IMG/VR virus record: IMGVR_UViG_3300025818_004904
Span: 1-45,808 of that record
Origin: a virus
DNA length: 45,808 bases
Strand: one strand, 5' to 3'
Positions 3,899-45,808 of this stretch are shown piece after piece (position 1 is the stretch's first letter; each line of letters starts with the position of its first letter). The notes under the pieces were generated by a model that was given only the letters and a program-made list of their open reading frames with translations, made no database searches and was not told where the DNA came from. The translations under genes were made by a program, and so were the position numbers.

Positions 3899-4103
3899 AA
3901 ACGAATGGCGTAAAAACCTGAAGGTTGGCGACCTCGTGAGGATGAAGTCTGGACACCTTGCGATCCTGACCGAGGTATATATGCGCTCAACTGGACCTGG
4001 CGGCAGCGAGTATCCGCACGTCAAAATATTATATTGCGATGATCAGTCAGCCGGCGGGTGTAGTGCTTGGCGAGTTGCGGAGGTTCTCAATGAAGCCAGG
4101 TGA
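3891..4103 (+). CDS. GDLV-family small protein, 70 aa
   Basis: The N-terminal part has KVGDLVRMKSG and the protein ends VAEVLNEAR, the two conserved ends of this family. I chose ATG 3891 over TTG 3888 because of AGAGG at 3880-3884. The last codons (GAGGTTCTCAATGAAGCC) encode EVLNEA and at the same time hold the ribosome-binding site and start codon of the next paralog, an arrangement repeated near 6300. Function unknown. Confidence 0.82.
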   Translation: MSKNEWRKNLKVGDLVRMKSGHLAILTEVYMRSTGPGGSEYPHVKILYCDDQSAGGCSAWRVAEVLNEAR

Positions 4104-4296
4104 TTTAGTTAGAATCTCAGACTGGGATGTCAAAGCCAATTTAGGCTGGAATCCCATCGGGCTTGTCTTATCAGAGCCTGAAGTGAAGAACCACGGCACA
4201 ACCTGTGTCCTTGTTGATTGGCTTGAATCACCTGACACCGAGTATTACTCAGTCCATCATTTAGAAGTTATTTCAGGGTCAGGAAAAGGAGAATAA
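4090..4296 (+). CDS. GDLV-family small protein, 68 aa
   Basis: Starts MKPGDLVRISDWD, has a central IGLVLSEPEV strand and ends near LEVISGSGKGE. It overlaps the upstream paralog by 14 bases. The DNA around its start is nearly identical to that of the paralog at 6307, so these are recent duplicates or gene-converted copies. It directly precedes the EcoRI-like endonuclease gene, which starts two bases after its stop. Role unknown. Confidence 0.85.
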   Translation: MKPGDLVRISDWDVKANLGWNPIGLVLSEPEVKNHGTTCVLVDWLESPDTEYYSVHHLEVISGSGKGE

Positions 4297-4297
4297 A

Positions 4298-4804
4298 ATG
4301 GCAGGCGGAATCCAACCAGGGACCACGGCTTGGGACGCTCAGTCACTCAACCACGACAAGGTTGTGCGACTAGCTTCGAAGGAAGCAGAAAAGATTCTCC
4401 AAGAGAGGTATCCTGGCATTCAGCGGCACAATAAGATTATTAAAGAATCTCTTCCAACCAAGATCGGAGCTTGTTCTCCAGACGGTGGCGTCTGGTACTA
4501 TCAAGGGAAGCTGATTGCTGCTTTTGAAGCAAAAAAACAGGGACCAAGAGGGAATGCTATTGAGCGCTGGTACAAAAACTATTTCCTCATTAAAGAGATC
4601 AATGATCGCTGCCCTCTGGTGACCTATGCTATGGGCGAGGGAGTGAGAGAAGGTAATCCCATTCAGGTCATCCTTCACGCTGCCCACAAAGGACAATACA
4701 ACACTTTCCGCTCAGAAGGTCCGTCCTGCTTCCTCAAGGAAGACGGCTTTACGCTAGAGGAAATCCGAGATAGTATAGTTCAGTTCATTGAAAGCGAGAT
4801 CTGA
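4298..4804 (+). CDS. EcoRI/MunI-like type II restriction endonuclease
   Basis: This is a 168-aa PD-(D/E)xK enzyme. SPDGG (Asp62) is followed by FEAKKQG, giving Glu77 and Lys79 as the remaining catalytic residues. Next comes GNAIERWYKN at 85-94, which matches the EcoRI segment GNAIERSHKN. In EcoRI, Asn141, Glu144 and Arg145 of this segment contact the inner AATT of GAATTC, so an AATT-containing target is likely. The protein is much shorter than EcoRI (277 aa) and lacks its C-terminal part, so outer-base specificity cannot be predicted. The methyltransferase gene starts four bases downstream. GGAGAA precedes the ATG. The pair could degrade host or rival phage DNA while the phage protects itself. 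Confidence 0.85.
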   Translation: MAGGIQPGTTAWDAQSLNHDKVVRLASKEAEKILQERYPGIQRHNKIIKESLPTKIGACSPDGGVWYYQGKLIAAFEAKKQGPRGNAIERWYKNYFLIKEINDRCPLVTYAMGEGVREGNPIQVILHAAHKGQYNTFRSEGPSCFLKEDGFTLEEIRDSIVQFIESEI

Positions 4805-4808
4805 AACT

Positions 4809-5735
4809 ATGACAAAGCCACTTTATATGTGGGCAGGCGGCAAGACCCGTATGCTCAAGAAATACGCTGACCTTCTTGAGGGTGTAGCTTTTGATCGTTA
4901 TATTGAGCCGTTCTTCGGCGGCGGTGCAATGTTTATCTGGGCATATCAGAAGAATCCAGATGCTGAGTTTATTATCAATGACATCAACTCAGGTATTATG
5001 AACATTTACACTGCCATCAAGAATGATTGTGATGACTTTGTTGAAGTCTTGGACATTTTGTCTAAAGAATACTTATCTCTCCCAAAGGGGGAGACAGACA
5101 AAAAGTTTGAGAAAGAGAATGAACTAAACTGGGATAAGTTATATCGCCTCCGTCCTTGCCGCCGATACTTTTATTTCAATCTTCGCCAGAAACATGCCTA
5201 CGAATATGAGGGCTGGGGCACAACAAAAGAAGCTGCTGTTTTGTATTTCTTGATGAAAACTGGTTTTAATGGTTTGTGGCAAGAGAACAAAAACACCAAT
5301 GGACGCTTTGGCACTCCTGCTGGCCTTTTGAACCAAAAAGATAAAGTTTATGATAAAGAGGTCGTTGAGTGGTGGCACCATGCTTTACAAAAATGCACAA
5401 TCCTTAGTGGCGACTTCGAGGCAACAAAAGAACACATCAACTCTGATACCTTTTTGTTTATGGATCCTCCCTACAGAGATAGTTTCACTCAGTATGAGAC
5501 TGATTTTAATGACGCCGAGCAGAAACGTGTAATCAGCCTACTAGAAGTTTGCCAGGAACATGGCGGAACAGGATGGCTTTCAAATAGGGAGGCAGGTGAC
5601 GGCTTCTTTGAAGAGAATGCATCAGGATTTACAATGCATAAGTTCCCTGTGACTTATACCGCAGGAAGAAGAAAGAAAGTTGATGATGGCTTCGAAGCTA
5701 AGAAAGCTACAGAAATTCTTTTGGTAACAAAATAA
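4809..5735 (+). CDS. Dam-type (D12 class) adenine-N6 DNA methyltransferase
   Basis: Transfers methyl from S-adenosylmethionine to N6 of adenine in DNA. The N-terminal MWAGGKTRML and EPFFGGG (about 34-39) form the AdoMet region, NDIN at 57-60 is the acidic loop, and DPPY at 219-222 is the catalytic motif; 308 aa is normal for the D12 class. I start at ATG 4809, after the nuclease stop, rather than the upstream in-frame TTG. It probably protects the target of the adjacent EcoRI-like enzyme. EcoRI's own partner methylase is a different class, so this would be a new combination. It may instead be a solitary GATC methylase. Confidence 0.93.
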   Translation: MTKPLYMWAGGKTRMLKKYADLLEGVAFDRYIEPFFGGGAMFIWAYQKNPDAEFIINDINSGIMNIYTAIKNDCDDFVEVLDILSKEYLSLPKGETDKKFEKENELNWDKLYRLRPCRRYFYFNLRQKHAYEYEGWGTTKEAAVLYFLMKTGFNGLWQENKNTNGRFGTPAGLLNQKDKVYDKEVVEWWHHALQKCTILSGDFEATKEHINSDTFLFMDPPYRDSFTQYETDFNDAEQKRVISLLEVCQEHGGTGWLSNREAGDGFFEENASGFTMHKFPVTYTAGRRKKVDDGFEAKKATEILLVTK

Positions 5736-5740
5736 AAAAC

Positions 5741-5768
5741 TTGACCTATCCCTAAACTGTAGTAATAT
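5741..5768 (+). promoter_or_regulatory. Sigma-70-type promoter, conserved cassette 2
   Basis: TTGACC at 5741-5746, a 16-bp spacer and TAATAT at 5763-5768, followed by TGTAAGGGAGAGAG before the ATG at 5790. It belongs to the recurrent promoter-leader family of this phage. Confidence 0.85.
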
Positions 5769-5789
5769 AGTGTTGTAAGGGAGAGAGTG

Positions 5790-5984
5790 ATGAGTGACTT
5801 CAATATGTTTCATGGCGAGCGTGTCAAGTACGCAGGGTACCACCCCCTTTTCCGTGGTAAGAAAGGTGTGGTTGTCGGCGGCGACCACCACAACATTCGT
5901 GTGGAGTGGGAAGGTCATGAAGACTATCCCCCCCGTCTTCACGAGGCGTGGGAAATTGTTTGGCTCGTAGATAGCGGAGAGTAG
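5790..5984 (+). CDS. SH3/KOW-like small protein, 64 aa
   Basis: The centre reads GKKGVVVGG...IRVEWEG, a turn-strand pattern typical of KOW/SH3-like barrels, with GERVKYAG in place of GDLV. It is the first gene after promoter 5741. ATG 5790 is preferred to GTG 5787 because of AAGGGAGA at 5778-5785. It is a divergent member of the surrounding family. Function unknown. Confidence 0.78.
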   Translation: MSDFNMFHGERVKYAGYHPLFRGKKGVVVGGDHHNIRVEWEGHEDYPPRLHEAWEIVWLVDSGE

Positions 5985-5986
5985 TT

Positions 5987-6154
5987 ATGAAAATGAAAGA
6001 GGGTGATCTGGTTCGGCACCTTGAGGATGGTCAAGCAGGAGTTATTGTTCTGTCTTGGGGTGTTATGGATGTTGTAGAGGTTCTCTGGAATGATGGTGAA
6101 GTCAGGGGACAGAACCTCTGCGAACTGGAGTTGATCAATGCAGCAAATAAATAG
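5987..6154 (+). CDS. GDLV-family small protein, 55 aa
   Basis: Encodes KMKEGDLVRHLEDG, then AGVIVLSWG and a C-terminal LCELELINAANK. The start lies two bases after the previous stop. The CTGGAG near its end serves as ribosome-binding site for the overlapping next gene at 6138. One of the shortest complete members of the family, so it may define the minimal domain. Function unknown. Confidence 0.8.
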   Translation: MKMKEGDLVRHLEDGQAGVIVLSWGVMDVVEVLWNDGEVRGQNLCELELINAANK

Positions 6155-6320
6155 GTTCGGTGTCGGTGCCCTAGTCAATGTTGATAAGCATTACAACAAG
6201 ACTTTGGGTATGATTGTTCGTCAAAGCCGTGGGTACAACTGGATTGTCAAACGTATGAACGACGGTCAAAATGTTCTAGCCCACGAAGACAATATGGAGG
6301 TGGTCAGTGAAGCCAGGTGA
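6138..6320 (+). CDS. GDLV-family small protein, 60 aa
   Basis: N-terminal FGVGALVNVDKHYNK replaces GDLV, followed by LGMIVRQSRG and a C-terminal DNMEVVSEAR. It overlaps both neighbours by 14-17 bases. Its end (GAGGTGGTCAGTGAAGCC) is nearly the same DNA as the end of the gene at 3891 and again contains the next gene's start. Confidence 0.8.
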   Translation: MQQINRFGVGALVNVDKHYNKTLGMIVRQSRGYNWIVKRMNDGQNVLAHEDNMEVVSEAR

Positions 6321-6468
6321 TTTGGTTCGGCATCGAGGGAACAAAGAATTATACCTCATACGAAAAATCTTTGAAGCCAGGGGTGAGATTATATGGGTCA
6401 ACCTAGAAGGTATGCCCGAAAACAAGATTCATTATCCAGAATCTCTAGAACTAATACAAAAAGCTTGA
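6307..6468 (+). CDS. GDLV-family small protein, 53 aa, GTG start
   Basis: Reads MKPGDLVRHRGNKELYLIRK and ends SLELIQKA. The GTG start lies inside the 3' end of the previous paralog, with GAGGTGG as ribosome-binding site. The TGA stop is inside the -35 box of the promoter at 6465, so coding and promoter information overlap. Confidence 0.78.
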   Translation: MKPGDLVRHRGNKELYLIRKIFEARGEIIWVNLEGMPENKIHYPESLELIQKA

Positions 6469-6492
6469 CAGCAACCTTATCCGTGATAGTAT
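6465..6492 (+). promoter_or_regulatory. Sigma-70-type promoter, conserved cassette 3
   Basis: TTGACA at 6465-6470, a 16-bp spacer and TAGTAT at 6487-6492, then GATGTAAGGAGAGAG before ATG 6512. The -35 box contains the stop codon of the gene at 6307. Confidence 0.83.
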
Positions 6493-6511
6493 AAGATGTA
6501 AGGAGAGAGAA

Positions 6512-6667
6512 ATGTCGGTTCAAGAACACATCGAAAACATCCTCAACGCCGAAGGTCAAGGCGCACTTGACGCTTGGTATGTTGCCATCCACGAGCACCC
6601 TCAAAGTGCTATGGATATCCACGATGAGGTTGTTGATCACCTTGTCGCTAACACCTTCATGTACTAA
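6512..6667 (+). CDS. Small helical protein, 51 aa
   Basis: A short acidic, helix-prone protein (ILNAEGQGALDAWYVAIHEH is typical). It does not carry the GDLV signature of its neighbours. It is the first gene after promoter 6465, with AAGGAGAGAG as ribosome-binding site. I do not recognise it. Confidence 0.68.
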   Translation: MSVQEHIENILNAEGQGALDAWYVAIHEHPQSAMDIHDEVVDHLVANTFMY

Positions 6668-6677
6668 GGAGAGAGTG

Positions 6678-6941
6678 GTGCTTTACGGCGAAGAACTTCT
6701 CAAGTCAATTCAGAACCGCTGCCGTATCCAGCCTGGTATGCTGATTCGCAGCCGACCAGAAGGTTTTGGAGAGAATGCCCCTCACGGCGGTAAGGTTGCT
6801 CTTGTCACGAAGGTGTCTCCTGGCTGTAAGTTTAGCCAAGACTACGAAGGTGCAGAAGAACACATCTTTTATGTCTGTGAGCCCTTTGACGGCACAAATG
6901 AGTTCGTAGATTATGTTTGCAATATGGAGCAGGTATCGTGA
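6678..6941 (+). CDS. GDLV-family small protein, 87 aa, GTG start
   Basis: RIQPGMLIRSR takes the place of PGDLVR, followed by GKVALVTKVSPG, and the protein ends VCNMEQVS. GTG 6678 is chosen over GTG 6675 because AAGGAG at 6666-6671 then has six bases of spacing. Overlaps the next gene by four bases. Confidence 0.75.
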   Translation: MLYGEELLKSIQNRCRIQPGMLIRSRPEGFGENAPHGGKVALVTKVSPGCKFSQDYEGAEEHIFYVCEPFDGTNEFVDYVCNMEQVS

Positions 6942-7198
6942 AGGTCGGGCAGATTGTAAAAATAACACCCAAGGCTTTAAACAAGTTCGCTCCTGGCATC
7001 CGCAAACGACTTGAAGGCTCAATTGGTCTGGTGGTCAAGGAGAAGTATGACCTCTCCTATAGGATTGACCAAGACAAACTCCCAGAGCGGGTCAAGGTTT
7101 ATCCATCTGCTGTTCAGTTCAATGAACTAGAAGACATTATGGGTTGCGAGGACAACACTATCATGCTCTTTGCAAATGAGGCAGAGGTCTTATCATGA
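6938..7198 (+). CDS. GDLV-family small protein, 86 aa, GTG start
   Basis: MKVGQIVKITPKALNKF at the start, GSIGLVVKEKYD in the middle and NEAEVLS at the end give the family pattern. The GTG overlaps the previous stop (GTGA). GAGGTCTTATCATGAAT at its 3' end again encodes EVLS and supplies the ribosome-binding site and start of the next gene. Confidence 0.78.
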   Translation: MKVGQIVKITPKALNKFAPGIRKRLEGSIGLVVKEKYDLSYRIDQDKLPERVKVYPSAVQFNELEDIMGCEDNTIMLFANEAEVLS

Positions 7199-8388: not shown

Positions 8389-10215
8389 ATGCCTATTAGT
8401 AGCAAAAACAAAAGTTTAGTTATATGGTTTATCGTTGTTGTTGCTGCTTTTTTCGTGTTGAGCGTCGGGACATTCGAGCCTCCCACTACAGTTGAGAAGG
8501 TCTCCTACACACAGATAATCAAGATTGTCGAGGAAGCCGAAGAAGCCAATAAGGACGCCTCTATTCTCATTCAGGGAAACCAATGGGAACTAAAAATAGA
8601 GGGCAAAACCTATATTACAACGGCTCCTTTAACTGATAAAACAATAGAAGACCTATCCAAGCACAAGAACCTAGAGATAAGGTTTTTGGAGCCCAAGCAG
8701 CCATCCATCTGGGTGACTGCCCTAATATCGTGGCTTCCGTTCTTAATAATATTTTATTTTGTTTATCGCTTTTTTAAGAACGCTCCAAAACTAGGCGGCG
8801 GAGGCGCTGGACGACTTGACGACTTTGGGAAGTCAGGTGCTACAGTCATTATGCCGGGTCTAGACGCCTACAAGTTTGATGACGTTGCTGGCTGCGACGA
8901 AGCCAAAGAAGAACTGGAAGACCTTGTTGAGTTTTTGCGGAACCCAAAAAGATTTACAGATATGGGCAGCAAACTTCCAAAAGGTGTTCTATTACACGGG
9001 CCTCCTGGAACAGGCAAGACACTACTAGCCAAAGCAATGGCTGGCGAAGCAGAAGTCCCGTTCCTATTGGCTGCTGGCTCAGACTTCGTAGAAATGTTTG
9101 TTGGCGTAGGTGCTTCCCGTGTCCGTGATTTATTCGACCAGGCTTATCAACTTGCTCCCTGCGTAGTCTTCATTGATGAGATCGACGCCATCGGCAAGAA
9201 GCGTGGCGGACCTGGGGGCGGAGGCAATGACGAGCGAGAGCAGACACTCAACCAAATGCTTGTCGAAATGGACGGCTTCGCAGACAACTCAGGCATCATC
9301 ATTTTAGCGGCTACAAACCGAGTAGAAATGCTTGACCGAGCCCTTACCCGCCCTGGACGCTTTGACCGCAAAGTTTCGGTTGGATTGCCCGATGTAAATG
9401 GGCGGCAACAAATATTAAAGATACACACACGCAACGTCCCCGTTGCTGAAGACCTAGACCTAGAACTCATAGCCAAAACAACACCGGGCTTCTCAGGTGC
9501 TGACCTATCCAACCTCGTCAATGAGGCTTCCATCATAGCAGCCCTAGACGAAGCACCCGTAGTTGAGAACTACCACTTCGACCAAGCCAGAGATAAAGTC
9601 ACTATGGGCAAACCTCGCAAGTCAATGAATATGAGCGAGGAGTCTAGACGTGCTACAGCAATCCACGAAGCGGGACACGCTCTGTTGGCTTACTACCTAG
9701 AGGACGCTGACCCTCTACACAAGGTCACCATCATTCCTCACGGCAGAGCCCTCGGCTTAACAATGCAACTCCCAGAAGACGACAAATATTCGTGGAGCAA
9801 AAAAGAAAACATAGCAAGAATCAAAGTATTGCTGGGTGGCTACATCGCAGAGAAAATGTTTTACGGGATTGAAGGCACATCAACAGGCGTATCAAATGAC
9901 TTATTACGAGCCAAACAAATAGCCGAGACAATGGTTAAGGACTACGGAATGGGCTCAGTCGGTCCAGTTTATTTCGGCAATGCCGACGCTTACGGCAATC
10001 GTGGTGCTGATATGTCTGACTTCACCAAAGAGCAGTTCGACACAGCCGTCAATGAGATTATGACCCAAGCCCTGCGGGAAGCAGAAGAACTGCTCAATGA
10101 AAAGCGAGAGCACATCGTCATTCTAACCAATATGCTCTTGGAGCAGGACACAGTCCTAGAGGAAGAGTTGGAAGGTATGTTCGGTCTCCTCGACATTTAT
10201 TTTGAGGAAGACTAA
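8389..10215 (+). CDS. ftsH: ATP-dependent zinc metalloprotease FtsH
   Basis: Membrane-anchored AAA+ protease that unfolds and degrades proteins. The 608-aa protein looks complete: membrane segments at about 9-27 and 106-126 flank a periplasmic domain, Walker A GPPGTGKT is at 204-211, Walker B VVFIDEID at 259-266, and the second region of homology [14 protein letters not shown] is present. The zinc site is HEAGH at 426-430 with Asp504 (VSNDLL) as likely third ligand, so it should be active. It lacks the long C-terminal tail of host enzymes. A phage FtsH could remodel the host protease pool or membrane quality control; cyanobacterial photosystem repair is one known host role for FtsH, but nothing here indicates that host. 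It is a single-gene unit with a recurrent element upstream. Confidence 0.97.
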
Positions 10216-16692: not shown

Positions 16693-19065
<2,373 letters not shown>

Positions 19066-36710: not shown

Positions 36711-37754
36711 ATGGCTGTTGATTTCAAAACGTTCGTTTCCTTAGCACCCGCAGTGAGCGCTGCTCGCCTGCCTGTCCTGCTCCGTGGTCGCCACGGTATT
36801 GGCAAGAGCCAGGTTGTGTATCAGCTTGCTGCTAACATGGGCTTGCCTGTTATTGAGCGGCGTGCTAGCCAGATGACAGAGGGTGATCTTGTTGGTCTCC
36901 CCAGCATTGATGGCAACCGCACGAGCTTTAACCCGCCTGACTGGTTCAAAGAAGCTTGTGAAGAGCCAGCAGTTCTCTTCCTTGATGAAGTTGATCGTGC
37001 TACTCTGGAAGTCCGCCAAGGGATTTTCGAACTGACTGACAGCCGTAAGCTGAATGGTCATCATCTTCACCCTGACACGATTGTGTTTGCTGCCATCAAT
37101 GGCGGGGAACATGGGGAACAATACCAAGTTAATGAAATGGACCCAGCAGAACTTGACCGATGGTCAGTCTGGGATATTGAGCCCACTGTTGAAGACTGGC
37201 TTGCATGGGGCAAGGAAAACGTTGATAGCCTGATCTGGGATTTTGTGAACCAGAATAGGGATCACCTTGAGCATAAGGGCGAAATTGAGCCGAACAAGCG
37301 CTATCCCAGCCGTCGTAGCTGGAAGCGGCTGAACGATGTGCTCGCAGGTGCTGGCTATCTTGAAGAAGCTGGTCCTGAAATGTTCACCCTTGCTCAGTCC
37401 TTCGTCGGCTTCGAAGCTGCTGTCGCTCTCAATGACTTCGCTCAGAACTATGAAAGGGTTGTGACGGTTGCTCAGCTTCTCGCTGGTGAGCGTAAAGACG
37501 CTCTGGCTGCCTTCTCCCTGAATGAGCACTGTGCGATGGTGGAAAAGATTGAAGCAGAAGAAGTCTGCAAGGAAGAACTCAGCGCCGAACACATCAGTGC
37601 TCTGGCTAGCTACTTCTGCGAGTTGCCCTCTGAAGCGGCAATGAAGCTCTGGACGGTCCTCAGCACCGCTGGTGTTCAGGACAACGTCATCAAGTTCCAC
37701 GGTGCTAATGATGGTGCCGTCGGTTCTCACCTCTCCAAAATCCTGGGAGCCTAA
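36711..37754 (+). CDS. MoxR-type AAA+ ATPase
   Basis: Walker A GRHGIGKS at 26-33 and Walker B VLFLDEVD at 88-95 lie in a 347-aa protein with the MoxR/AAA_5 layout (DLVGLPSIDGNRTSFNPPDW and FAAINGGEHG are typical). MoxR ATPases act as chaperones or metal-insertion factors with VWA proteins; the next gene is exactly such a protein. It has its own strong promoter, and a terminator separates it from the VWA gene, which has a matching promoter. CGT, CGC and GGT codons look commoner than in nearby genes, consistent with high expression. Confidence 0.92.
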   Translation: MAVDFKTFVSLAPAVSAARLPVLLRGRHGIGKSQVVYQLAANMGLPVIERRASQMTEGDLVGLPSIDGNRTSFNPPDWFKEACEEPAVLFLDEVDRATLEVRQGIFELTDSRKLNGHHLHPDTIVFAAINGGEHGEQYQVNEMDPAELDRWSVWDIEPTVEDWLAWGKENVDSLIWDFVNQNRDHLEHKGEIEPNKRYPSRRSWKRLNDVLAGAGYLEEAGPEMFTLAQSFVGFEAAVALNDFAQNYERVVTVAQLLAGERKDALAAFSLNEHCAMVEKIEAEEVCKEELSAEHISALASYFCELPSEAAMKLWTVLSTAGVQDNVIKFHGANDGAVGSHLSKILGA

Positions 37755-37882: not shown

Positions 37883-39070
37883 ATGAGCTTTGATCTTAAA
37901 CTCCATGCTTATCGACTGCTGATGGACGAGCCCTTCTTTGCTTGTCTGTCCCGCAAGATTGAGAAGCGTGAGGATCGCAGTATCCCAACAGCAGGTGTGC
38001 TCGTCAATGAGAACACTGGTCAGTTTGAGATGATCTACAATCCTGAGTTCCTTGCTAGCCTGCCCGAGAACCAGATCAAGGGTGTTCTCAAGCATGAGTT
38101 CTATCACCTGATTTTTGAACACGTTACCAGCCGTAAGCCTGAAGGCGTTGCTCACAAGTCGTGGAACATTGCTGCTGACCTGGCTATCAACAGCCACTTG
38201 GTTGATGAGCTTCCAGAGTTTGCCTGTATGCCGGGTGTCGGTCCTTTTGAAGAACTGCCCAAGTTCAAAACGGCTGAGTGGTATCTCAAGAACATTACTC
38301 AAGATCAGGTTGATCAGTGCAATGCTCCCGGCGGTATGGACGGCGGTGAGGGCGAAGCTGGTACTGGTCAGCTTGATAGCCATGAGGGTTGGGATGAAGA
38401 AGGTGGTAGCCCTGCACAAGAAGCTGCCAACCAGATGGCTAAGGAACGACTGAAGCAAGCAATGAAGGAGGCTGCCCAGGAAGCCAGCAAGTCTCCCAAC
38501 GGCTGGGGATCAGTTTCAGGGGACCTTAAAAAAGAAATCATGAAAAGGATTGAAACGAAGGTAGACTGGAAGAAGGTACTACGATACTTCATCAAGACTT
38601 CCCAACGTGCTAACAAGAGCAGCACTGTCCGCCGTATTAACAAGCGGTATGCCTACATTCACCCAGGGAAGAAAGTAAAGCGGCAAGCAAAGATCGCAAT
38701 TGCTATTGACCAGTCTGGTAGCGTTAGTGATGAAATGCTTGAGAGCTTCTTCGGTGAGCTTAATAAACTTGCTAAGCTGGCTGCCTTCACGGTCATTCCC
38801 TTTGATACCAGCGTTGATGAGAAGCTGGTCTATGAATGGAAGAAGGGCAAGGCTCACAAAGCTGAACGGGTGATGTGCGGCGGCACCTGCTTTGATGCTC
38901 CTACCGAATATGTAAATAAGCGTGGGGACTTTGACGGTGTTATTATTTTGACGGACATGGAAGCTCCTGCTCCCAAAGCCTGCAAAGCCCAGCGGATGTG
39001 GATGACTGATGAGCGGGGTGCTAGCCGTCCCTACTTCCAAACCCGTGAGCGTGTGATCGCAATCTCCTAA
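37883..39070 (+). CDS. VWA-domain metallopeptidase-like protein (DUF2201 type)
   Basis: HEFYHLIFEH at 71-80 is an HExxH site in the N-terminal domain, followed by WNIAADLAINSHL, the layout of VWA-like predicted metallopeptidases. A Gly/Asp-rich linker leads to a C-terminal VWA domain with a MIDAS motif DQSGS starting at Asp276, and LTDMEAPAP near the end. At 395 aa it is complete. It is the natural partner of the MoxR ATPase upstream. In bacteria such pairs remodel or activate other proteins; what the phage pair acts on is unknown. Its separate identical-type promoter suggests matched, early expression. Confidence 0.9.
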   Translation: MSFDLKLHAYRLLMDEPFFACLSRKIEKREDRSIPTAGVLVNENTGQFEMIYNPEFLASLPENQIKGVLKHEFYHLIFEHVTSRKPEGVAHKSWNIAADLAINSHLVDELPEFACMPGVGPFEELPKFKTAEWYLKNITQDQVDQCNAPGGMDGGEGEAGTGQLDSHEGWDEEGGSPAQEAANQMAKERLKQAMKEAAQEASKSPNGWGSVSGDLKKEIMKRIETKVDWKKVLRYFIKTSQRANKSSTVRRINKRYAYIHPGKKVKRQAKIAIAIDQSGSVSDEMLESFFGELNKLAKLAAFTVIPFDTSVDEKLVYEWKKGKAHKAERVMCGGTCFDAPTEYVNKRGDFDGVIILTDMEAPAPKACKAQRMWMTDERGASRPYFQTRERVIAIS

Positions 39071-39716: not shown

Positions 39717-39908
39717 ATGGGACTTCAACCAGGTGACTTAATAGAATTCACATGGGCTGCTAGCTTTGGCGACAGAACAGAACTTGCTATATTCATCGGA
39801 TGGGAAAGAGAAGATATAAAAGCAAGGGCAAAAATACTGTATAATACAAAAGTACTCTGGGTTAATCACCAGTTCATAAGGAAAGTAGAAGATGACTCCG
39901 AAGTTTAA
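39717..39908 (+). CDS. GDLV-family small protein, 63 aa
   Basis: MGLQPGDLIEFTWAASFG opens the second array. The core AIFIGWEREDIK and the ending HQFIRKVEDDSEV follow the family order. No clear ribosome-binding site; TATATAAATT lies directly upstream. Overlaps the next gene by 17 bases. Confidence 0.76.
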   Translation: MGLQPGDLIEFTWAASFGDRTELAIFIGWEREDIKARAKILYNTKVLWVNHQFIRKVEDDSEV

Positions 39909-40164
39909 AGTAGGCGACTTAGTACAATATGACCTGAGTCTAGAGTTCGAAGGCGATGCCCTCGACCCTAATGCCCCGGCGGATCAGTACATGCGTCAAG
40001 GGATCATCACGGGGTTCGTGGATGTAGAGACAGGTCAGCGTCTAAACGGCGACTTTGCAACGGATGATAAAGTGGTCGCTGCGTCCATCTTAGGTCCTAA
40101 GGGTTCAGACGTCATCCTCATGACTAACCTAGAGATGGTTTCAGCGGCTCGCAGCGAATGCTAA
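39892..40164 (+). CDS. GDLV-family small protein, 90 aa
   Basis: KFKVGDLVQYDLSLEFEG at the start, a roughly 20-residue insertion, GIITGFVDVETG, and the end TNLEMVSAARSEC. GGAAAG before the ATG. Overlaps the next gene by seven bases. Confidence 0.8.
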   Translation: MTPKFKVGDLVQYDLSLEFEGDALDPNAPADQYMRQGIITGFVDVETGQRLNGDFATDDKVVAASILGPKGSDVILMTNLEMVSAARSEC

Positions 40165-40388
40165 CATCCGGCGACCTAGTCAGAATCAAAGTACCAAACC
40201 TTGACTACTTCAATAACAAGCTCGCAATCGTTCTCCACCTTGCTAGCAAACAACAGCATTACGACAATGACGGCAACCTGCACACAACCCGCTACTATCT
40301 TATCAACCTATCAGGCTCCCAAGCCGATCACATCTTTTCACAACACCAGCTTGAACTGCTTTCAAAGGCATACGAAATAAATGACTAA
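40158..40388 (+). CDS. GDLV-family small protein, 76 aa
   Basis: MLTSGDLVRIKVPNLDYF, KLAIVLHLASKQ and HQLELLSKAYEIND give the family ends. The SKA ending is shared with the next paralogs and differs from the SEAR ending of the first array. Confidence 0.82.
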   Translation: MLTSGDLVRIKVPNLDYFNNKLAIVLHLASKQQHYDNDGNLHTTRYYLINLSGSQADHIFSQHQLELLSKAYEIND

Positions 40389-40608
40389 CAACAAAGCATT
40401 CATCTTCGAAGTAGGAGATCTAGTCAAATGGAAGCAGCAAAGAATAACAGAAGACTTTGTCGAGGAGTACGAAAATGTCGGCATCGTCATCGGGCATGAA
40501 CGACGCTACGCAAAGGAAGAGCATGTCTGCAAAGTGCAAGTTGGCAGCCAAACCTACAGCATCCGCACGCATATGCTTGAACTCGTATCAAAGGGCACAA
40601 AAGAATAA
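40381..40608 (+). CDS. GDLV-family small protein, 75 aa
   Basis: FEVGDLVKWKQQRITEDF, VGIVIGHERRYAK and HMLELVSKGTKE. Start overlaps the upstream gene by eight bases; the stop overlaps the next ATG by one base (TAATG). Confidence 0.82.
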   Translation: MTNNKAFIFEVGDLVKWKQQRITEDFVEEYENVGIVIGHERRYAKEEHVCKVQVGSQTYSIRTHMLELVSKGTKE

Positions 40609-40838
40609 TGAGCAACAAAACATACGGCAGCGGATTCCGTTATAATATAGGCGACCTTGTTAAGTTTAGACATGACCGTATGAATGTAATAGATTATAAG
40701 GTAGGAATAGTAGTAGAACAGAGTTATAGAATCACTAGAGATAATATGTTTAAAATCTTAGTGAAGGATAAATACTACTGGAAATCTGCGGATAAGATTA
40801 CTTTGCTGTCTAAGGCTACGAAAGGCTCTTCTAAATGA
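40608..40838 (+). CDS. GDLV-family small protein, 76 aa
   Basis: YNIGDLVKFRHDRMNVID, YKVGIVVEQSYRI and DKITLLSKATKGSSK. Codon use is more A/T-rich than in the preceding paralog, so copies may have arrived at different times. Confidence 0.82.
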   Translation: MSNKTYGSGFRYNIGDLVKFRHDRMNVIDYKVGIVVEQSYRITRDNMFKILVKDKYYWKSADKITLLSKATKGSSK

Positions 40839-41173
40839 TTCACAACGATAAACAGCAGTCATGTGCTGGTAAGACTTTGCGGAGTGACCCAACATATGGT
40901 TCAGCACCTTCACAACACTCGCCCGCACGAGCCGACCGCATCGACAGGTTCGTAGCCAGTCGGGAACCTTCCCAAGGGGTTATCAAATATTGTAAAAGAT
41001 CTTATAGGGTTGGAGATTTATTGAGAGGGCTATCAACTGCGTGGAATCCTAATGGATTGGTTTTGATTACGAGGTCCTCTGGGCATTGCTCATACTTTTA
41101 TGGGATTAACTGCCTTACGGGCGATGAGCACCTTTTCAATCTTCAACATTATGTAGGGGTTGATGAGGTTTGA
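40835..41173 (+). CDS. GDLV-family protein with N-terminal extension, 112 aa
   Basis: The first 55 residues are polar and unrelated to the family; YRVGDLLRGLSTAWNPNG starts the usual domain and NGLVLITRSSGH continues it. The ending differs (HYVGVDEV). ATG overlaps the upstream stop (ATGA). The extension DNA (40860-40975) is more GC-rich than its surroundings and may be a later insertion. Confidence 0.75.
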   Translation: MIHNDKQQSCAGKTLRSDPTYGSAPSQHSPARADRIDRFVASREPSQGVIKYCKRSYRVGDLLRGLSTAWNPNGLVLITRSSGHCSYFYGINCLTGDEHLFNLQHYVGVDEV

Positions 41174-41178
41174 CTGCC

Positions 41179-41367
41179 GTGCCAGCCGTTGCCGGCTTTG
41201 ACTGCAAAGTTGGAGACTTGATAAAGTGCAAGCAATTCCCAATGACTCCTCTGCTTGTTGAGAATATTATGTACCATGGCTGCGATGTTGTCTATGTTGT
41301 TAGGCATGACGGCTGTGCCTGCTATTTACTTGAGACAGATATTGTCGACCTGTTATCTAAATCTTAA
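41179..41367 (+). CDS. GDLV-family small protein, 62 aa, GTG start
   Basis: FDCKVGDLIKCKQFPMTP, then VVYVVRHDGCA and DIVDLLSKS. GTG 41179 has GATGAGG at suitable spacing; TTG 41170, which overlaps the upstream stop, is an alternative. Five cysteines are unusual for the family. Last member of the second array. Confidence 0.74.
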   Translation: MPAVAGFDCKVGDLIKCKQFPMTPLLVENIMYHGCDVVYVVRHDGCACYLLETDIVDLLSKS

Positions 41368-41403: not shown

Positions 41404-41541
41404 ATGAGAAAATTTTATATCGGAATACTGTTAATCTGCTACTGGCTTCAAAAGAAAAATTGGCGGAACCCTGGCGGGCTGGTTTGGCGGCTGACAACTC
41501 CTATTGGTGCGTGGGCTGCGGGGAAAGCTGGTGACTCCTAG
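41404..41541 (+). CDS. Small membrane protein, 45 aa
   Basis: RKFYIGILLICYWLQKKN then a Gly/Trp-rich tail. GGAG lies nine bases before the ATG. Overlaps the Smr gene by 11 bases. Weakly supported. Confidence 0.48.
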   Translation: MRKFYIGILLICYWLQKKNWRNPGGLVWRLTTPIGAWAAGKAGDS

Positions 41542-41767
41542 ATTGGACCTTCATGGGCTGCGTCACCATGAGGTTGAAAACGAAGTCGTGAGGTTTTTAG
41601 AGAAGCACTTAAGGTCTGGTTTGTTTATAGAAATCATCACGGGCAATAGTCAGGTCATGATTGAAGAAAGTATTAAAATAATACAACAATACGGGTTACA
41701 ATATTATCATGGATACCCTAATTACGTTGGAAGGATAATGGTAGTGACCTACGATGAGTTTCACTAG
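41531..41767 (+). CDS. Smr-domain protein, 78 aa, GTG start
   Basis: LDLHGLRHHEVENEVVRFLE and IEIITGNSQVMIEESI are the two Smr blocks (LDLHG and the TGxG-like TGNS). Smr domains nick or bind nucleic acids, and some act in ribosome rescue. The protein is a bare Smr domain. GTG 41531 follows GGGGAAAG. Confidence 0.85.
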   Translation: MTPRLDLHGLRHHEVENEVVRFLEKHLRSGLFIEIITGNSQVMIEESIKIIQQYGLQYYHGYPNYVGRIMVVTYDEFH

Positions 41768-41867: not shown

Positions 41868-42212
41868 ATGGTTTATAAGTTATTGTTTTTGCTCGTTTTT
41901 ATGAGCCCCTATAATGCTGAATATAATCTACAGCAAATCGAATGCCCACGATGGGCTCCTGGTGGTGATGAAATCCTACCAATGAACATCACCCTTTCCC
42001 CACAACTCAAACTTCAGAACGCAATGAGGTGTTACTGTCAAGTTGTGAAATACAAGGAGCGTGAATGTATCCGCAATGGTGTCCCAGAAAGAATCTGTCA
42101 AAGAAGAACTGAAGACTGGGTTACTAATAATCTAAAACTTAACCAAAACGTCATCCAGGATAATGTGATGATGAGACTGCCTAAGAGGAACCTAATCATC
42201 AATGAAAACTAA
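41868..42212 (+). CDS. Secreted Cys-rich protein, 114 aa
   Basis: A signal peptide is visible at 1-18 (YKLLFLLVFMSPYNA), then a soluble domain with about five cysteines (ECPRW, CYCQV, EC..N, RICQRR) that could form disulfides in the periplasm. It overlaps the pilin-like gene by 11 bases, suggesting the two act together. Not recognised. Confidence 0.7.
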   Translation: MVYKLLFLLVFMSPYNAEYNLQQIECPRWAPGGDEILPMNITLSPQLKLQNAMRCYCQVVKYKERECIRNGVPERICQRRTEDWVTNNLKLNQNVIQDNVMMRLPKRNLIINEN

Positions 42213-42609
42213 AGGCTTCGCTTTAATTCTTACTCTAGTTGTTGCAACAGTTATTAGCACTTCTGCTATTTTAATCTATACTATGACTAGGGACGAGATG
42301 CAGATCGCCGCCAACAACCGCAGGGTGTTGCAATCAAAACTTGCAGCAGTCTCAGGACTCACTCACTTCAAGAGTATGGAACTATTCTACGAACACTTAA
42401 GACAACAAGCAGACGCTCTGGGTCGTGAGAAGATTATTGTCATTGAGGAGACCGCACTGGGCGACCGAACATTTTATAGAGTTGAAGTCAATCTATGTTG
42501 TGGATTAGGTGAGAACGAGTTCATGGTTAAGAGCACTGGGTACTACAAGGACAATGGTCGTATTATTTCAGAGCATGTAAAGCGTTCTTTATTCAGGACT
42601 GTAGACTAA
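42202..42609 (+). CDS. PilX-like minor pilin, 135 aa
   Basis: KTKGFALILTLVVATVIST fits a prepilin signal with cleavage after Gly5 and a hydrophobic N-terminal helix. It lacks Glu at +5, as in GspK/PilX-type minor pilins. The following NNRRVLQSKLAAVSGLTHF matches the PilX N-terminal continuation. A type IV pilus or type II secretion pseudopilin in a phage is very unusual. It could interfere with host pili used by rival phages, or derive from a host gene. The partner gene upstream is secreted as well. Confidence 0.75.
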   Translation: MKTKGFALILTLVVATVISTSAILIYTMTRDEMQIAANNRRVLQSKLAAVSGLTHFKSMELFYEHLRQQADALGREKIIVIEETALGDRTFYRVEVNLCCGLGENEFMVKSTGYYKDNGRIISEHVKRSLFRTVD

Positions 42610-43031: not shown

Positions 43032-43457
43032 ATGAATCACGATAAATGGAAAAAATTTCTAAGTGAAGCCAAGATGGCGGATCTTGGTGCTGAACAAAAG
43101 TATGTTGCCAAGATTGGTAGTATGAAAGTTCTTATCGATATTGAGGACGCCGATCTTGTTGGTACCAAGCACAGCAAAGAGAGACAGTTCCGTCATGATA
43201 GGAAAATCTCTAATGAAGCGATCATCAACGCTGTTGAACTAGCTCTAGGTAAAGTCATTAATGATTTTGCCAATGGCGAGCTTGGGAATAATGAACCATT
43301 TGTCATACGTGCTGTTAGTAGAGGCAAGGCACCTGATCTTAATGTTGTTGCTGCCCTTGATATGAAAAAAGGTCCTGATAGTGTTAAAGTTGTGACTGTC
43401 ATGAGAAAGAATGATTTCAAGACAGATGACAAGACCTACGAGGTTCATCCTCGATGA
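43032..43457 (+). CDS. Leader-tagged protein, possible BECR/DUF4258-like fold, 141 aa
   Basis: KWKKFLSEAK at residues 5-14 contains L-S-E before Ala, the form of a prohead protease site, and the same KWK(K/Q)FL(S/N)EA occurs in the next gene. The body has HSKERQFRHDRKISNEAIIN and a later KVVTVMRKNDF, a pattern seen in small RelE/DUF4258-type nucleases. I rate the leader likely and the nuclease idea weak. Overlaps the next gene by four bases. Confidence 0.68.
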   Translation: MNHDKWKKFLSEAKMADLGAEQKYVAKIGSMKVLIDIEDADLVGTKHSKERQFRHDRKISNEAIINAVELALGKVINDFANGELGNNEPFVIRAVSRGKAPDLNVVAALDMKKGPDSVKVVTVMRKNDFKTDDKTYEVHPR

Positions 43458-44269
43458 TCTACCAGGCTAAGTGGAAACAGTTTCTTAACGAGGCTGTTAA
43501 AGTTTATGTTCATGGATACGTTAAGCCAGAGTCTGCTTTCCACACTATAGCTGAATGGGAAGCTTTTGCGGATCAAATCTTACAGTTCCAAAAGGATGGA
43601 CACTCTATACGTGGTGGTAAGATTGATGGTCCCACAGAGTTAGTAGATTTAATATATTCTTTTTATGGCTTCCAGCTAAATGTAGAAGTTGATCGATATG
43701 AGTTGCTTACATTTAAGAATGTGATGGATCATGTCGAGGATCTGATCAACCATAGAGTGTGGGGACTTCGCAGGGAGTTTGGAGGCTACTTTCCTGACAT
43801 TAACAAACTAAGATTAGCATACTTTTATTCCCGTGGAGACATGGAGCCATACATTCTTATAGATGATGAATTTACCGAGCAAATTTATGGCTCAACTAAT
43901 AACCCCAAAAAACTTCTCCACTACACAACAAAAGACGGTGTAGATAGAATACAGAGAGCAATAGACTCAGGTGACCCTTTTGACATTTCTGCCTACACCG
44001 TGGCTGAACGACCTTTCTTTAGAAAAGAGTCAAACTTGATTATGGAGTTTGAAGGAAATGTTCGTGCTGGGTTTCGTAGCGATGTAAAATCTTTTGCTGT
44101 TGATAACGGAAGAAAATGTGTGAACCTATATAGATTAGGTTACCCTGGTGAAGATAAAGACAATCTTTGTACTGATCTAGAAAATGACTGTAACGGTGAG
44201 TTGAAAACTTCTTTATGGAATGAGTTCATTGCTACGCCGATCAAAATTTTAGGAGTTGATGAAAAATGA
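43454..44269 (+). CDS. Leader-tagged protein, 271 aa, possible ADP-ribosyltransferase-like
   Basis: AKWKQFLNEAVK near the start repeats the leader of the previous gene. The second half has LLHYTTKDGVDRIQRAIDSG, which resembles the first strand of ADP-ribosyltransferase-like folds (H-Y-x-T plus G-V-x-x-I), followed by a conserved Cys-rich LCTDLENDC. If correct, this would parallel T4 Alt, which is packaged, cleaved and injected. Similarity is weak and by eye. No other family recognised. Confidence 0.62.
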   Translation: MIYQAKWKQFLNEAVKVYVHGYVKPESAFHTIAEWEAFADQILQFQKDGHSIRGGKIDGPTELVDLIYSFYGFQLNVEVDRYELLTFKNVMDHVEDLINHRVWGLRREFGGYFPDINKLRLAYFYSRGDMEPYILIDDEFTEQIYGSTNNPKKLLHYTTKDGVDRIQRAIDSGDPFDISAYTVAERPFFRKESNLIMEFEGNVRAGFRSDVKSFAVDNGRKCVNLYRLGYPGEDKDNLCTDLENDCNGELKTSLWNEFIATPIKILGVDEK

Positions 44270-44586
44270 ACATCACTGAAGAACTATTAAGAAAAGTTGT
44301 CGCTGAAAGCATTAAGCGAACTAAGGAACTACGTGAAGCTTTCCGTATGGAAAAGGACTTCAAGAAAGGTATGCCTGTTACTTGGAATACTCTTGAAAAG
44401 GTAACTAAGAAAACAGCAAGTGGTCGTGAAAAGGTCGATTACGAACGAGTAGAAAACAAAGGCTATATCATGGATTTGGTCAGAGCACCATTAGGATCTG
44501 TCGAGCCAGGTTTAGCTGTTGTTCAGGACATGGACGGCAACACTCAAGAAATAGCACTAACCGAGCTTACACCAGTTAAAGCATAA
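44266..44586 (+). CDS. Leader-tagged small protein, 106 aa
   Basis: NITEELLRKVVAESIKRTKE is the leader helix (VAE before Ser). The rest is a basic beta-like domain (GYIMDLVRAPLGSVEPGL and VVQDMDG). Overlaps the upstream gene by four bases. Not recognised. Confidence 0.68.
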   Translation: MNITEELLRKVVAESIKRTKELREAFRMEKDFKKGMPVTWNTLEKVTKKTASGREKVDYERVENKGYIMDLVRAPLGSVEPGLAVVQDMDGNTQEIALTELTPVKA

Positions 44587-44611: not shown

Positions 44612-45808
44612 ATGAGTACTTTCAGAGAACATAAGACTATCGCCGATCGAGCAGCGAATGACCGCTCTCGGCATAGGAAAAAAGTAGAAAAAGCAATCAA
44701 GGAAAGCATCAAGGATGTTGTTGCCGAAGAGAGCATCATTGGTCAAAGTGGTAAAAAGAAAATAAGGATTCCAATCAAAGGAATCAAAGAACACCAGTTT
44801 GTCTATGGAAACAATGAAAAGAATAAAAGAGTTGGCTCTGCCCAAGGTAAGGATGTAAAACAAGGGCAACGAATAGGGAAAACTAATCCCCGCAAAGGAC
44901 AGGGGCAAGGAAACAAGCCAGGCAATAAGCCTGGTGAGGAAATGTACGAAATTGAGATGTCCCTGGAGGAGCTAGCGGAATATCTCTTTGCTGATCTTAA
45001 TCTCCCTGAACTAGAAAAGAAGCAGTTCAAGTTTATTACTGAAGAGAAGATGAAACGTAAAGGCAAGAGACCTTACGGTATTCGTCCTAGACTTTCTAAA
45101 AAGGAAACAATAAAACAGAAGATAAAAAGAAAGAAAGCAGCAATCAAAGCTGGAACACACGATCCTGAAAGTGGTGAGCGTTTCCCATTTCATGAAAGTG
45201 ATCTAAGATACAAGCACATTGCTCCTGTAGAAAAGGAAAACACTACAGCAGTTATTTTCTTTGTAATGGATGTCTCTGGGTCTATGACTAAGTCTAAGAA
45301 GTTCTTGGCTCGTAGTTTCTTCTTTCTTTTATACCAATTTTTGAATCACAAGTATTCTTCAGTTGATGTTGTTTTTGTTTCCCATACAACTGACGCAAAA
45401 GAAGTCAATGAAGAGCAATTCTTCACCCGTGCTACTGGTGGCGGGACAATGGCTTCTTCTGGGCTTGAAAAAGTCAAGGAAATCATAGACAAGAGATATC
45501 ATCCAAATAACTGGAATATCTACACTTTTTATTGTGGCGATGGCGAGAACTGGGGCTCTGATAATGATAAGACTATAGAGCTTTTTAGGGAACTAAAAGA
45601 AATAAACCAAATGATGTGCTACACAGAGATTGGCGAAGGTAACGATAACTCACGTATAAACTCTTTATCATTCTTTGCCGAGTTTTCTGAAAACAGTTTA
45701 TGGAATCGTATTGAGACTCTGACAGACAAAAGACTTAAGAAAAACCGATTGATAACCCATGATAATATTTGGTCATCTTTCAAGAGACTGTTCGGAGGGA
45801 AAGCATAA
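44612..45808 (+). CDS. yhbH: YhbH/YeaH-type (DUF444) VWA protein
   Basis: This matches the bacterial YhbH/YeaH family along its length: HRKKVEKAIKESIKDVVAEE, KIRIPIKGIKEHQF, ELAEYLFADLNLPELEKKQF, a VWA MIDAS DVSGSM at 220-225, RSFFFLLYQFLNHKYSSVDV, GGGTMASSG and NIYTFYCGDGENW. At 398 aa it is complete and ends on the last base. In bacteria this gene works with the PrkA kinase and SpoVR in stress and stationary-phase control; neither partner is visible here, though they could follow. The N-terminal helix resembles the leader motif of its neighbours, but it is also native to the family. Confidence 0.95.
   Translation: MSTFREHKTIADRAANDRSRHRKKVEKAIKESIKDVVAEESIIGQSGKKKIRIPIKGIKEHQFVYGNNEKNKRVGSAQGKDVKQGQRIGKTNPRKGQGQGNKPGNKPGEEMYEIEMSLEELAEYLFADLNLPELEKKQFKFITEEKMKRKGKRPYGIRPRLSKKETIKQKIKRKKAAIKAGTHDPESGERFPFHESDLRYKHIAPVEKENTTAVIFFVMDVSGSMTKSKKFLARSFFFLLYQFLNHKYSSVDVVFVSHTTDAKEVNEEQFFTRATGGGTMASSGLEKVKEIIDKRYHPNNWNIYTFYCGDGENWGSDNDKTIELFRELKEINQMMCYTEIGEGNDNSRINSLSFFAEFSENSLWNRIETLTDKRLKKNRLITHDNIWSSFKRLFGGKA

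Follow-up and report, generated by a model that had tools for sequence, protein, structure and literature searches.

A DUF444 gene at the end of a virus contig and the predicted YeaH-SpoVR-PrkA operon of T4-like ocean phages

The DUF444 gene and its locus

The window, that is, the whole stretch of DNA analysed here, is the linear virus contig IMGVR_UViG_3300025818_004904, with a length of 45,808 bases. It encodes a phage-type DNA polymerase, a dUTPase, methyltransferases and an endolysin match. Its last gene encodes a DUF444 (YeaH/YhbH) VWA protein, and, as the first-pass annotation had stated, the window ends exactly at the stop codon of this gene. The features of the window are listed in Table 1.

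Table 1. Features of the window, with positions on the contig.
Feature	Position	Strand	Characteristics
FtsH	8389-10215		HEAGH intact
Chaperonin, GroEL-family protein	17479-19065		
AAA_5 ATPase, first half of the second AAA+/VWA pair	36711..37754	+	Pfam AAA_5 1.4e-11; PHROG ATPase 1.2e-49
DUF2201 protein	37883..39070	+	Metallopeptidase-like domain (HEFYH) and VWA-like domain (DQSGS); Pfam DUF2201_N 3.9e-24, DUF2201 5.7e-11
Run of small ORFs	39892-41367		Paralogue-like; common GDLVK/GDLIK motif
Smr-like ORF	41504-41767		Adjoins the run of small ORFs
Gene upstream of the pilin-like gene	41868-42212		Kept together with the pilin-like gene in 16 loci of this phage group
Type IV pilin-like protein	42202-42609		PilX_N, below cut-off
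Upstream gene	43032..43457	+	N-terminal W-x-x-F-L-x-E tag
Conserved upstream gene, family f52	43454..44269	+	N-terminal W-x-x-F-L-x-E tag
Small conserved upstream gene, family f39	44266..44586	+	14 loci; N-terminus MNITEELLRKVVAESIKR
DUF444/YeaH/YhbH VWA protein	44612..45808	+	398 aa; ATG start; stop is the last base of the record
MIDAS motif 1, D220-V-S222-G-S224	45269..45283	+	D, S, G and S invariant in 35 sequences
MIDAS motif 2, T279 in GGT	45446..45448	+	Invariant
MIDAS motif 3, D310 in DG(E/D)N	45539..45541	+	Invariant

In a profile search, the DUF444 protein matched Pfam PF04285 with an E-value of 1.2e-107 and 361 bits (cut-off 27 bits). The match had been described as covering the entire family length; it consists of two stretches, profile positions 10-177 and 219-415 of 418, so that nearly the whole profile is covered and about 40 positions (178-218) are absent. 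The length of the protein is essentially full. The metal site was found intact, as had also been claimed, the five residues D220, S222, S224, T279 and D310 being invariant in an alignment of 35 phage and bacterial DUF444 sequences. Chance is excluded as an explanation of the DUF444 observation.

In the AlphaFold2 model, the C-terminal half adopts a VWA fold (best Z 17.7, rmsd 2.6 over 161 residues), and confidence is low over much of the N-terminal third. Foldseek matched the model to MDN1-MIDAS and NorQD; a search of the PDB by sequence gave no match for DUF444. Codon comparison of the window gene with locus L003 gave a dN/dS of 0.03, indicating strongly purifying selection, and all three proteins of the DUF444-SpoVR-PrkA trio described below are under selection. 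In two near-identical loci (L058 and L059) the DUF444 gene is split into overlapping frames (5453-6190 and 6105-6662), by a frameshift, an insertion or a sequencing error.

SpoVR and PrkA in related phages

Partner genes prkA and spoVR had been predicted 3' of the DUF444 gene. Comparison of the window protein with viral contigs gave 19 relatives with 59-94% identity, and in all 19 SpoVR and then PrkA lie directly downstream of DUF444. In L003, the DUF444 protein of which is 94% identical to that of the window, the partner genes occupy positions 3928-5244 and 5248-7191, with nearly full-length Pfam matches to SpoVR (1.2e-115), AAA_PrkA (1.9e-141) and the PrkA C-terminal domain (1.4e-80).

A PrkA-anchored scan of viral contigs detected at least 575 encoding stretches, the best 80 of which were kept; together with the DUF444-anchored scan they represent 84 distinct marine contigs, "marine" being a label taken from published work on viral spoVR and from the type of collection, not from sample metadata. 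An independent SpoVR-anchored scan detected 515 encoding stretches and yielded 73 new loci, many of them on contigs already counted. In these sets of best-scoring matches, whose proportions apply to the marine clade and not to viruses at large, the order YeaH-SpoVR-PrkA on one strand was present in 82 of the 84 contigs, the remaining two (L054 and L109) beginning inside the operon, and the whole operon was present in 71 of the 73 SpoVR-anchored loci, the other two being cut by contig ends. The first-pass annotation had named what would refute it, namely no partner genes in related phages and no profile match to the family; both partners and the match were found.

With start codons taken nearest the upstream stop, the gap between DUF444 and SpoVR never exceeded 3 nt in the measured loci and was usually an overlap of 1, 4 or 8 nt, and that between SpoVR and PrkA was most often 1-5 nt and in a minority 20-70 nt. 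PrkA was present in one copy per virus contig. From the gene order, the window gene is thus the predicted first cistron of a phage YeaH-SpoVR-PrkA operon, whose completeness is read in the relatives since the window contig itself stops at gene one.

The major capsid gene gp23 was present in 12 of 13 long relative contigs, versus none of 14 control genomes. Judged by this gene, the carriers of the trio are T4-like phages, a class that rests on gp23 in the long relatives and not on the 45.8-kb window itself. Hundreds of T4-like ocean phages thus appear to carry YeaH-SpoVR-PrkA in rearranged order.

Two other phage records were considered. Bacillus phage CM1 has a DUF444-like gene, the neighbours of which include no annotated trio members. 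The yeaGH genes of Enterobacter phage LAU1 were rejected as likely host flanking DNA; they lie at the record end and are 84-85% identical over 99% to Klebsiella/E. coli yeaGH.

Surroundings of the operon

Four kinds of surroundings of the trio were distinguished across the marine phage loci. In the group of the window, the AAA_5-DUF2201 pair and the pilin-like gene lie upstream, a PALP-family enzyme is usually encoded downstream, and in the compared contigs the operon and gp23 are some 75-100 kb apart. The second group has gp23, a head-tail adaptor-like gene, two unnamed genes, the trio and the tail sheath in this order, in some cases with a tail-fibre-like gene separating the last two; in one of its loci (L068) the preceding unnamed gene (4663-5496) overlaps DUF444 (5493 onward) by 4 nt. 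Downstream of the trio in the third group come a gene whose product partly matches the GroEL profile, small conserved genes, a tubulin-like gene in some loci, and PhoH; about 30 marine loci have a GroEL-like gene after the trio. In the fourth group (L019, L021 and L063-L075), the upstream genes are in the opposite orientation. Thermus phage Lalka8 has the portal and minor head genes on one side of the trio and TerL on the other. Seven large-phage loci encode a tubulin/FtsZ-like protein (below the Pfam cut-off; L094 14783-15955, family 100) on the downstream side of the operon.

Since the trio remains intact in three or more dissimilar settings, it is regarded as a kept unit. From its position in the second group and in Lalka8, late expression seems likelier than a simple dormancy switch; given the distance of about 75-100 kb from gp23, this is not confidently extended to the window. 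The T4 late promoter TATAAATA was not found just upstream of DUF444 or of gp23.

Many otherwise unlike proteins of the window and of L003-L021 and L063-L075 have an N-terminal tag, W-x-x-[FY]-[LIV]-x-[EQDN] (for example, MKLLMENWRKFLKEG). It occurred within the first 25 residues of 50 of 2451 ORFs, versus 13 of 15630 internal 25-residue windows, a count that includes near-identical loci and several tagged ORFs of one family. The tag recalls the T4 capsid-targeting sequence, and by this analogy the tagged proteins may be virion cargo.

Gene order, phylogeny and origin

The order PrkA-YeaH-SpoVR was found in 53 of the best bacterial loci, besides two miscalled rows, and the marine phage order is a cyclic permutation of it. 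A "DUF444 first" order at L150 and L164 was discarded as an ORF-calling artefact with overlapping frames. Within the bacterial collection, the permuted order YeaH-SpoVR-PrkA was seen in L159 (a Clostridia MAG) and in L110 (NHDW01000006.1, 305,838 bases), filed as the Methylococcaceae MAG TMED69. The latter was rejected as a bacterial copy in phage order, because gp23 lies on the same contig as the phage operon and the surroundings fit phage group III; L110 is thus most probably a large phage that was binned wrongly.

In the DUF444, SpoVR and PrkA trees, the marine set formed one clade in each; for DUF444 and SpoVR, this clade had full or near-full support. The PrkA and SpoVR proteins nearest to this clade among bacteria belong to a sub-family in Clostridia, Flammeovirga, Bdellovibrionales and others, with 52-61% PrkA identity to the marine phages; in the DUF444 tree the marine clade lies beside a different bacterial set, with long branches. 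In the PrkA tree, a quick tree in which long branches are present, the phage label changes six times, which points to acquisition of the trio by phages several times.

The trio is also present in the megaphages LR756504, LR745206 and LR756511, in the bacterial order PrkA-YeaH-SpoVR. Their PrkA proteins group with different bacterial lineages, which argues for separate acquisitions. The SpoVR gene of LR756504 (L025, 12500-14407) apparently contains an intein, whose insertion site is the conserved NEG|CA motif.

Comparison with known systems

The Thermus phages phiYS40, TMA, phiLo, MN1 and Lalka8 encode all three families on the same strand, in the permuted order where it was read; phiYS40 has an extra gene between SpoVR and PrkA. 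Their proteins share only about 22-36% identity with those of the marine phages, their PrkA forms a separate clade and their SpoVR is highly diverged. SpoVR (ORF28) and PrkA (ORF30) have been reported in the Ralstonia jumbo phage RsoM2USA (PMC8504454). The bacterial operons (yeaGH and ycgB in E. coli; prkA/yhbH/spoVR in B. subtilis) have the same families, MIDAS residues and PrkA domains, but their order differs.

The trio in Thermus phages and spoVR in ocean viruses are thus already known. No description of the whole trio as a marine-phage operon was found in a literature search that covered few subscription papers; PMC5764234 was discarded, since it concerns DUF4445 and not DUF444.

An AAA+ motor is paired with a MIDAS-bearing VWA partner in RavA-ViaA. 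The same pairing is found in NorQ-NorD and MDN1-NLE1, as in the trio, which differs from all three systems in that PrkA, with its kinase-like C-terminus, represents another AAA+ family and SpoVR has no known counterpart there. The PDB contains one PrkA structure set, 9xip. PrkA of B. anthracis is an AAA+ protein; when well purified, it showed negligible kinase or protease activity, in contrast with an earlier report of weak protease activity for B. subtilis PrkA (PMC13001217).

Predicted fold of SpoVR and a second AAA+/VWA pair

The predicted model of SpoVR had a pLDDT of 87.2. No SpoVR match was obtained when the PDB was searched by sequence, and Foldseek on the model returned nothing significant. 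VIA-align gave 3o0y (Z 11.2) and 3cmn (Z 10.0), followed by M3, M32, M4, ACE-type, M61 and other metallopeptidases with Z 5-9; values of 11.2 or less are modest, as common arrangements can score so and the candidate pool was rich in ACE2 entries, and the likeness is suggestive because it is consistent across several metallopeptidase families.

H106, H110 and E253 of SpoVR were invariant in 36 sequences and lie in the predicted helices 97-116 and 249-267, an arrangement that a metal site would be expected to show. In zincins, the Glu after the first His of the HExxH motif serves catalysis. SpoVR has H106-(C/V/A)-x-x-H110 instead, Glu being absent at position 107 in all 36 sequences, and for this reason it is possibly no peptidase. 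On the model, SpoVR may be a metal-binding protein with a zincin-like fold that does not perform classical peptidase chemistry.

The DUF2201 gene lies about 6 kb upstream of DUF444. Because its protein combines HEFYH with a VWA-like motif, the phage would have two AAA+/VWA/metallopeptidase-like sets.

Function of the trio

As the best explanation, it is tentatively proposed that the trio encodes an AAA+/VWA/metallopeptidase-like machine of the phage's own, which would remodel proteins or control stress during infection. The DUF444, SpoVR and PrkA proteins would together form one machine, in which PrkA, an AAA+ ATPase with a kinase-like C-terminus, would be the ATP-driven motor, DUF444 would grip a client or partner through its metal-bound MIDAS, as in other AAA+/VWA systems, and SpoVR, with its predicted zinc-metallopeptidase-like fold, would act on the client or sense it. 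The phage's own copy would probably be made in the later part of infection, and the trio would remodel or clear proteins and let a starved or stressed cell go on producing during the building of virions. Since the entire module is carried and not a lone adaptor, the phages need not act via the host PrkA. Besides the trio, the window phage has FtsH, a GroEL-type protein and the second AAA+/VWA/metallopeptidase-like pair. This machine fits the anatomy somewhat better than the dormancy reading of the first-pass annotation, and roles in proteostasis or assembly would be at least as likely, given that the trio lies among virion genes or beside putative virion-cargo genes in several lineages.

Import of the whole YeaG-YeaH-YcgB pathway, by which a stationary or starvation-adapted state of the host would be imposed or prolonged in favour of a slow, long infection, is considered rather unlikely. 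It agrees, as does the proposed machine, with the need for yeaG in adaptation of E. coli to nitrogen starvation, in which AAA+ and kinase-domain residues are both required and yeaH mutants behave alike; yeaG/yeaH also influence rpoS and metabolic heterogeneity (PMC4664914). Of the viral sporulation-type genes in the ETNP oxygen-minimum zone, spoVR had the highest abundance and was read as promoting sporulation, PrkA and YeaH being unmentioned (PMC8940887). The selection on all three proteins would also be expected, but a position among virion genes, as in one group, is unexpected of an early takeover function, and no dormancy regulator was met beside the trio, although the search for one was not systematic. 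A further reading, in which the trio is a general AAA+/VWA/metallopeptidase-like machine for remodelling proteins that was made by T4-like ocean phages into a proteostasis system of late infection or virion assembly, is regarded as doubtful.

It is improbable that the trio is a dedicated machine for virion assembly or maturation, or is itself packaged, in the manner of the phage proteases and chaperones for capsid, neck and tail proteins. Its position between the adaptor and sheath genes in the second group and between head genes and TerL in Lalka8, the GroEL-like gene following it and the candidate virion-cargo genes directly upstream in the group of the window are consistent with such a role; against it, bacteria keep the same trio without phages, the trio is far from gp23 in the group of the window, and the N-termini of DUF444 and PrkA have no cargo-like tag. 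That the trio is a mere passenger, a host operon of recent capture that does nothing for the phage, is extremely improbable, for although homologous operons are common in bacteria, it is contradicted by the strong purifying selection, and the deep single marine clade, the preserved metal-site residues and the hundreds of matching stretches also stand against it.

Significance

Conservation of PrkA, YeaH and SpoVR is wide among bacteria. That one phage clade retains just these three genes together through changed surroundings indicates one functional unit, and the phage trio offers a compact, selectable system for finding its function, with burst size as an easy read-out. The finding also bears on the interpretation of viral "sporulation" genes in oxygen-minimum-zone surveys: if the reading as late-infection or assembly proteostasis is true, the abundant marine viral spoVR would be unrelated to spores.
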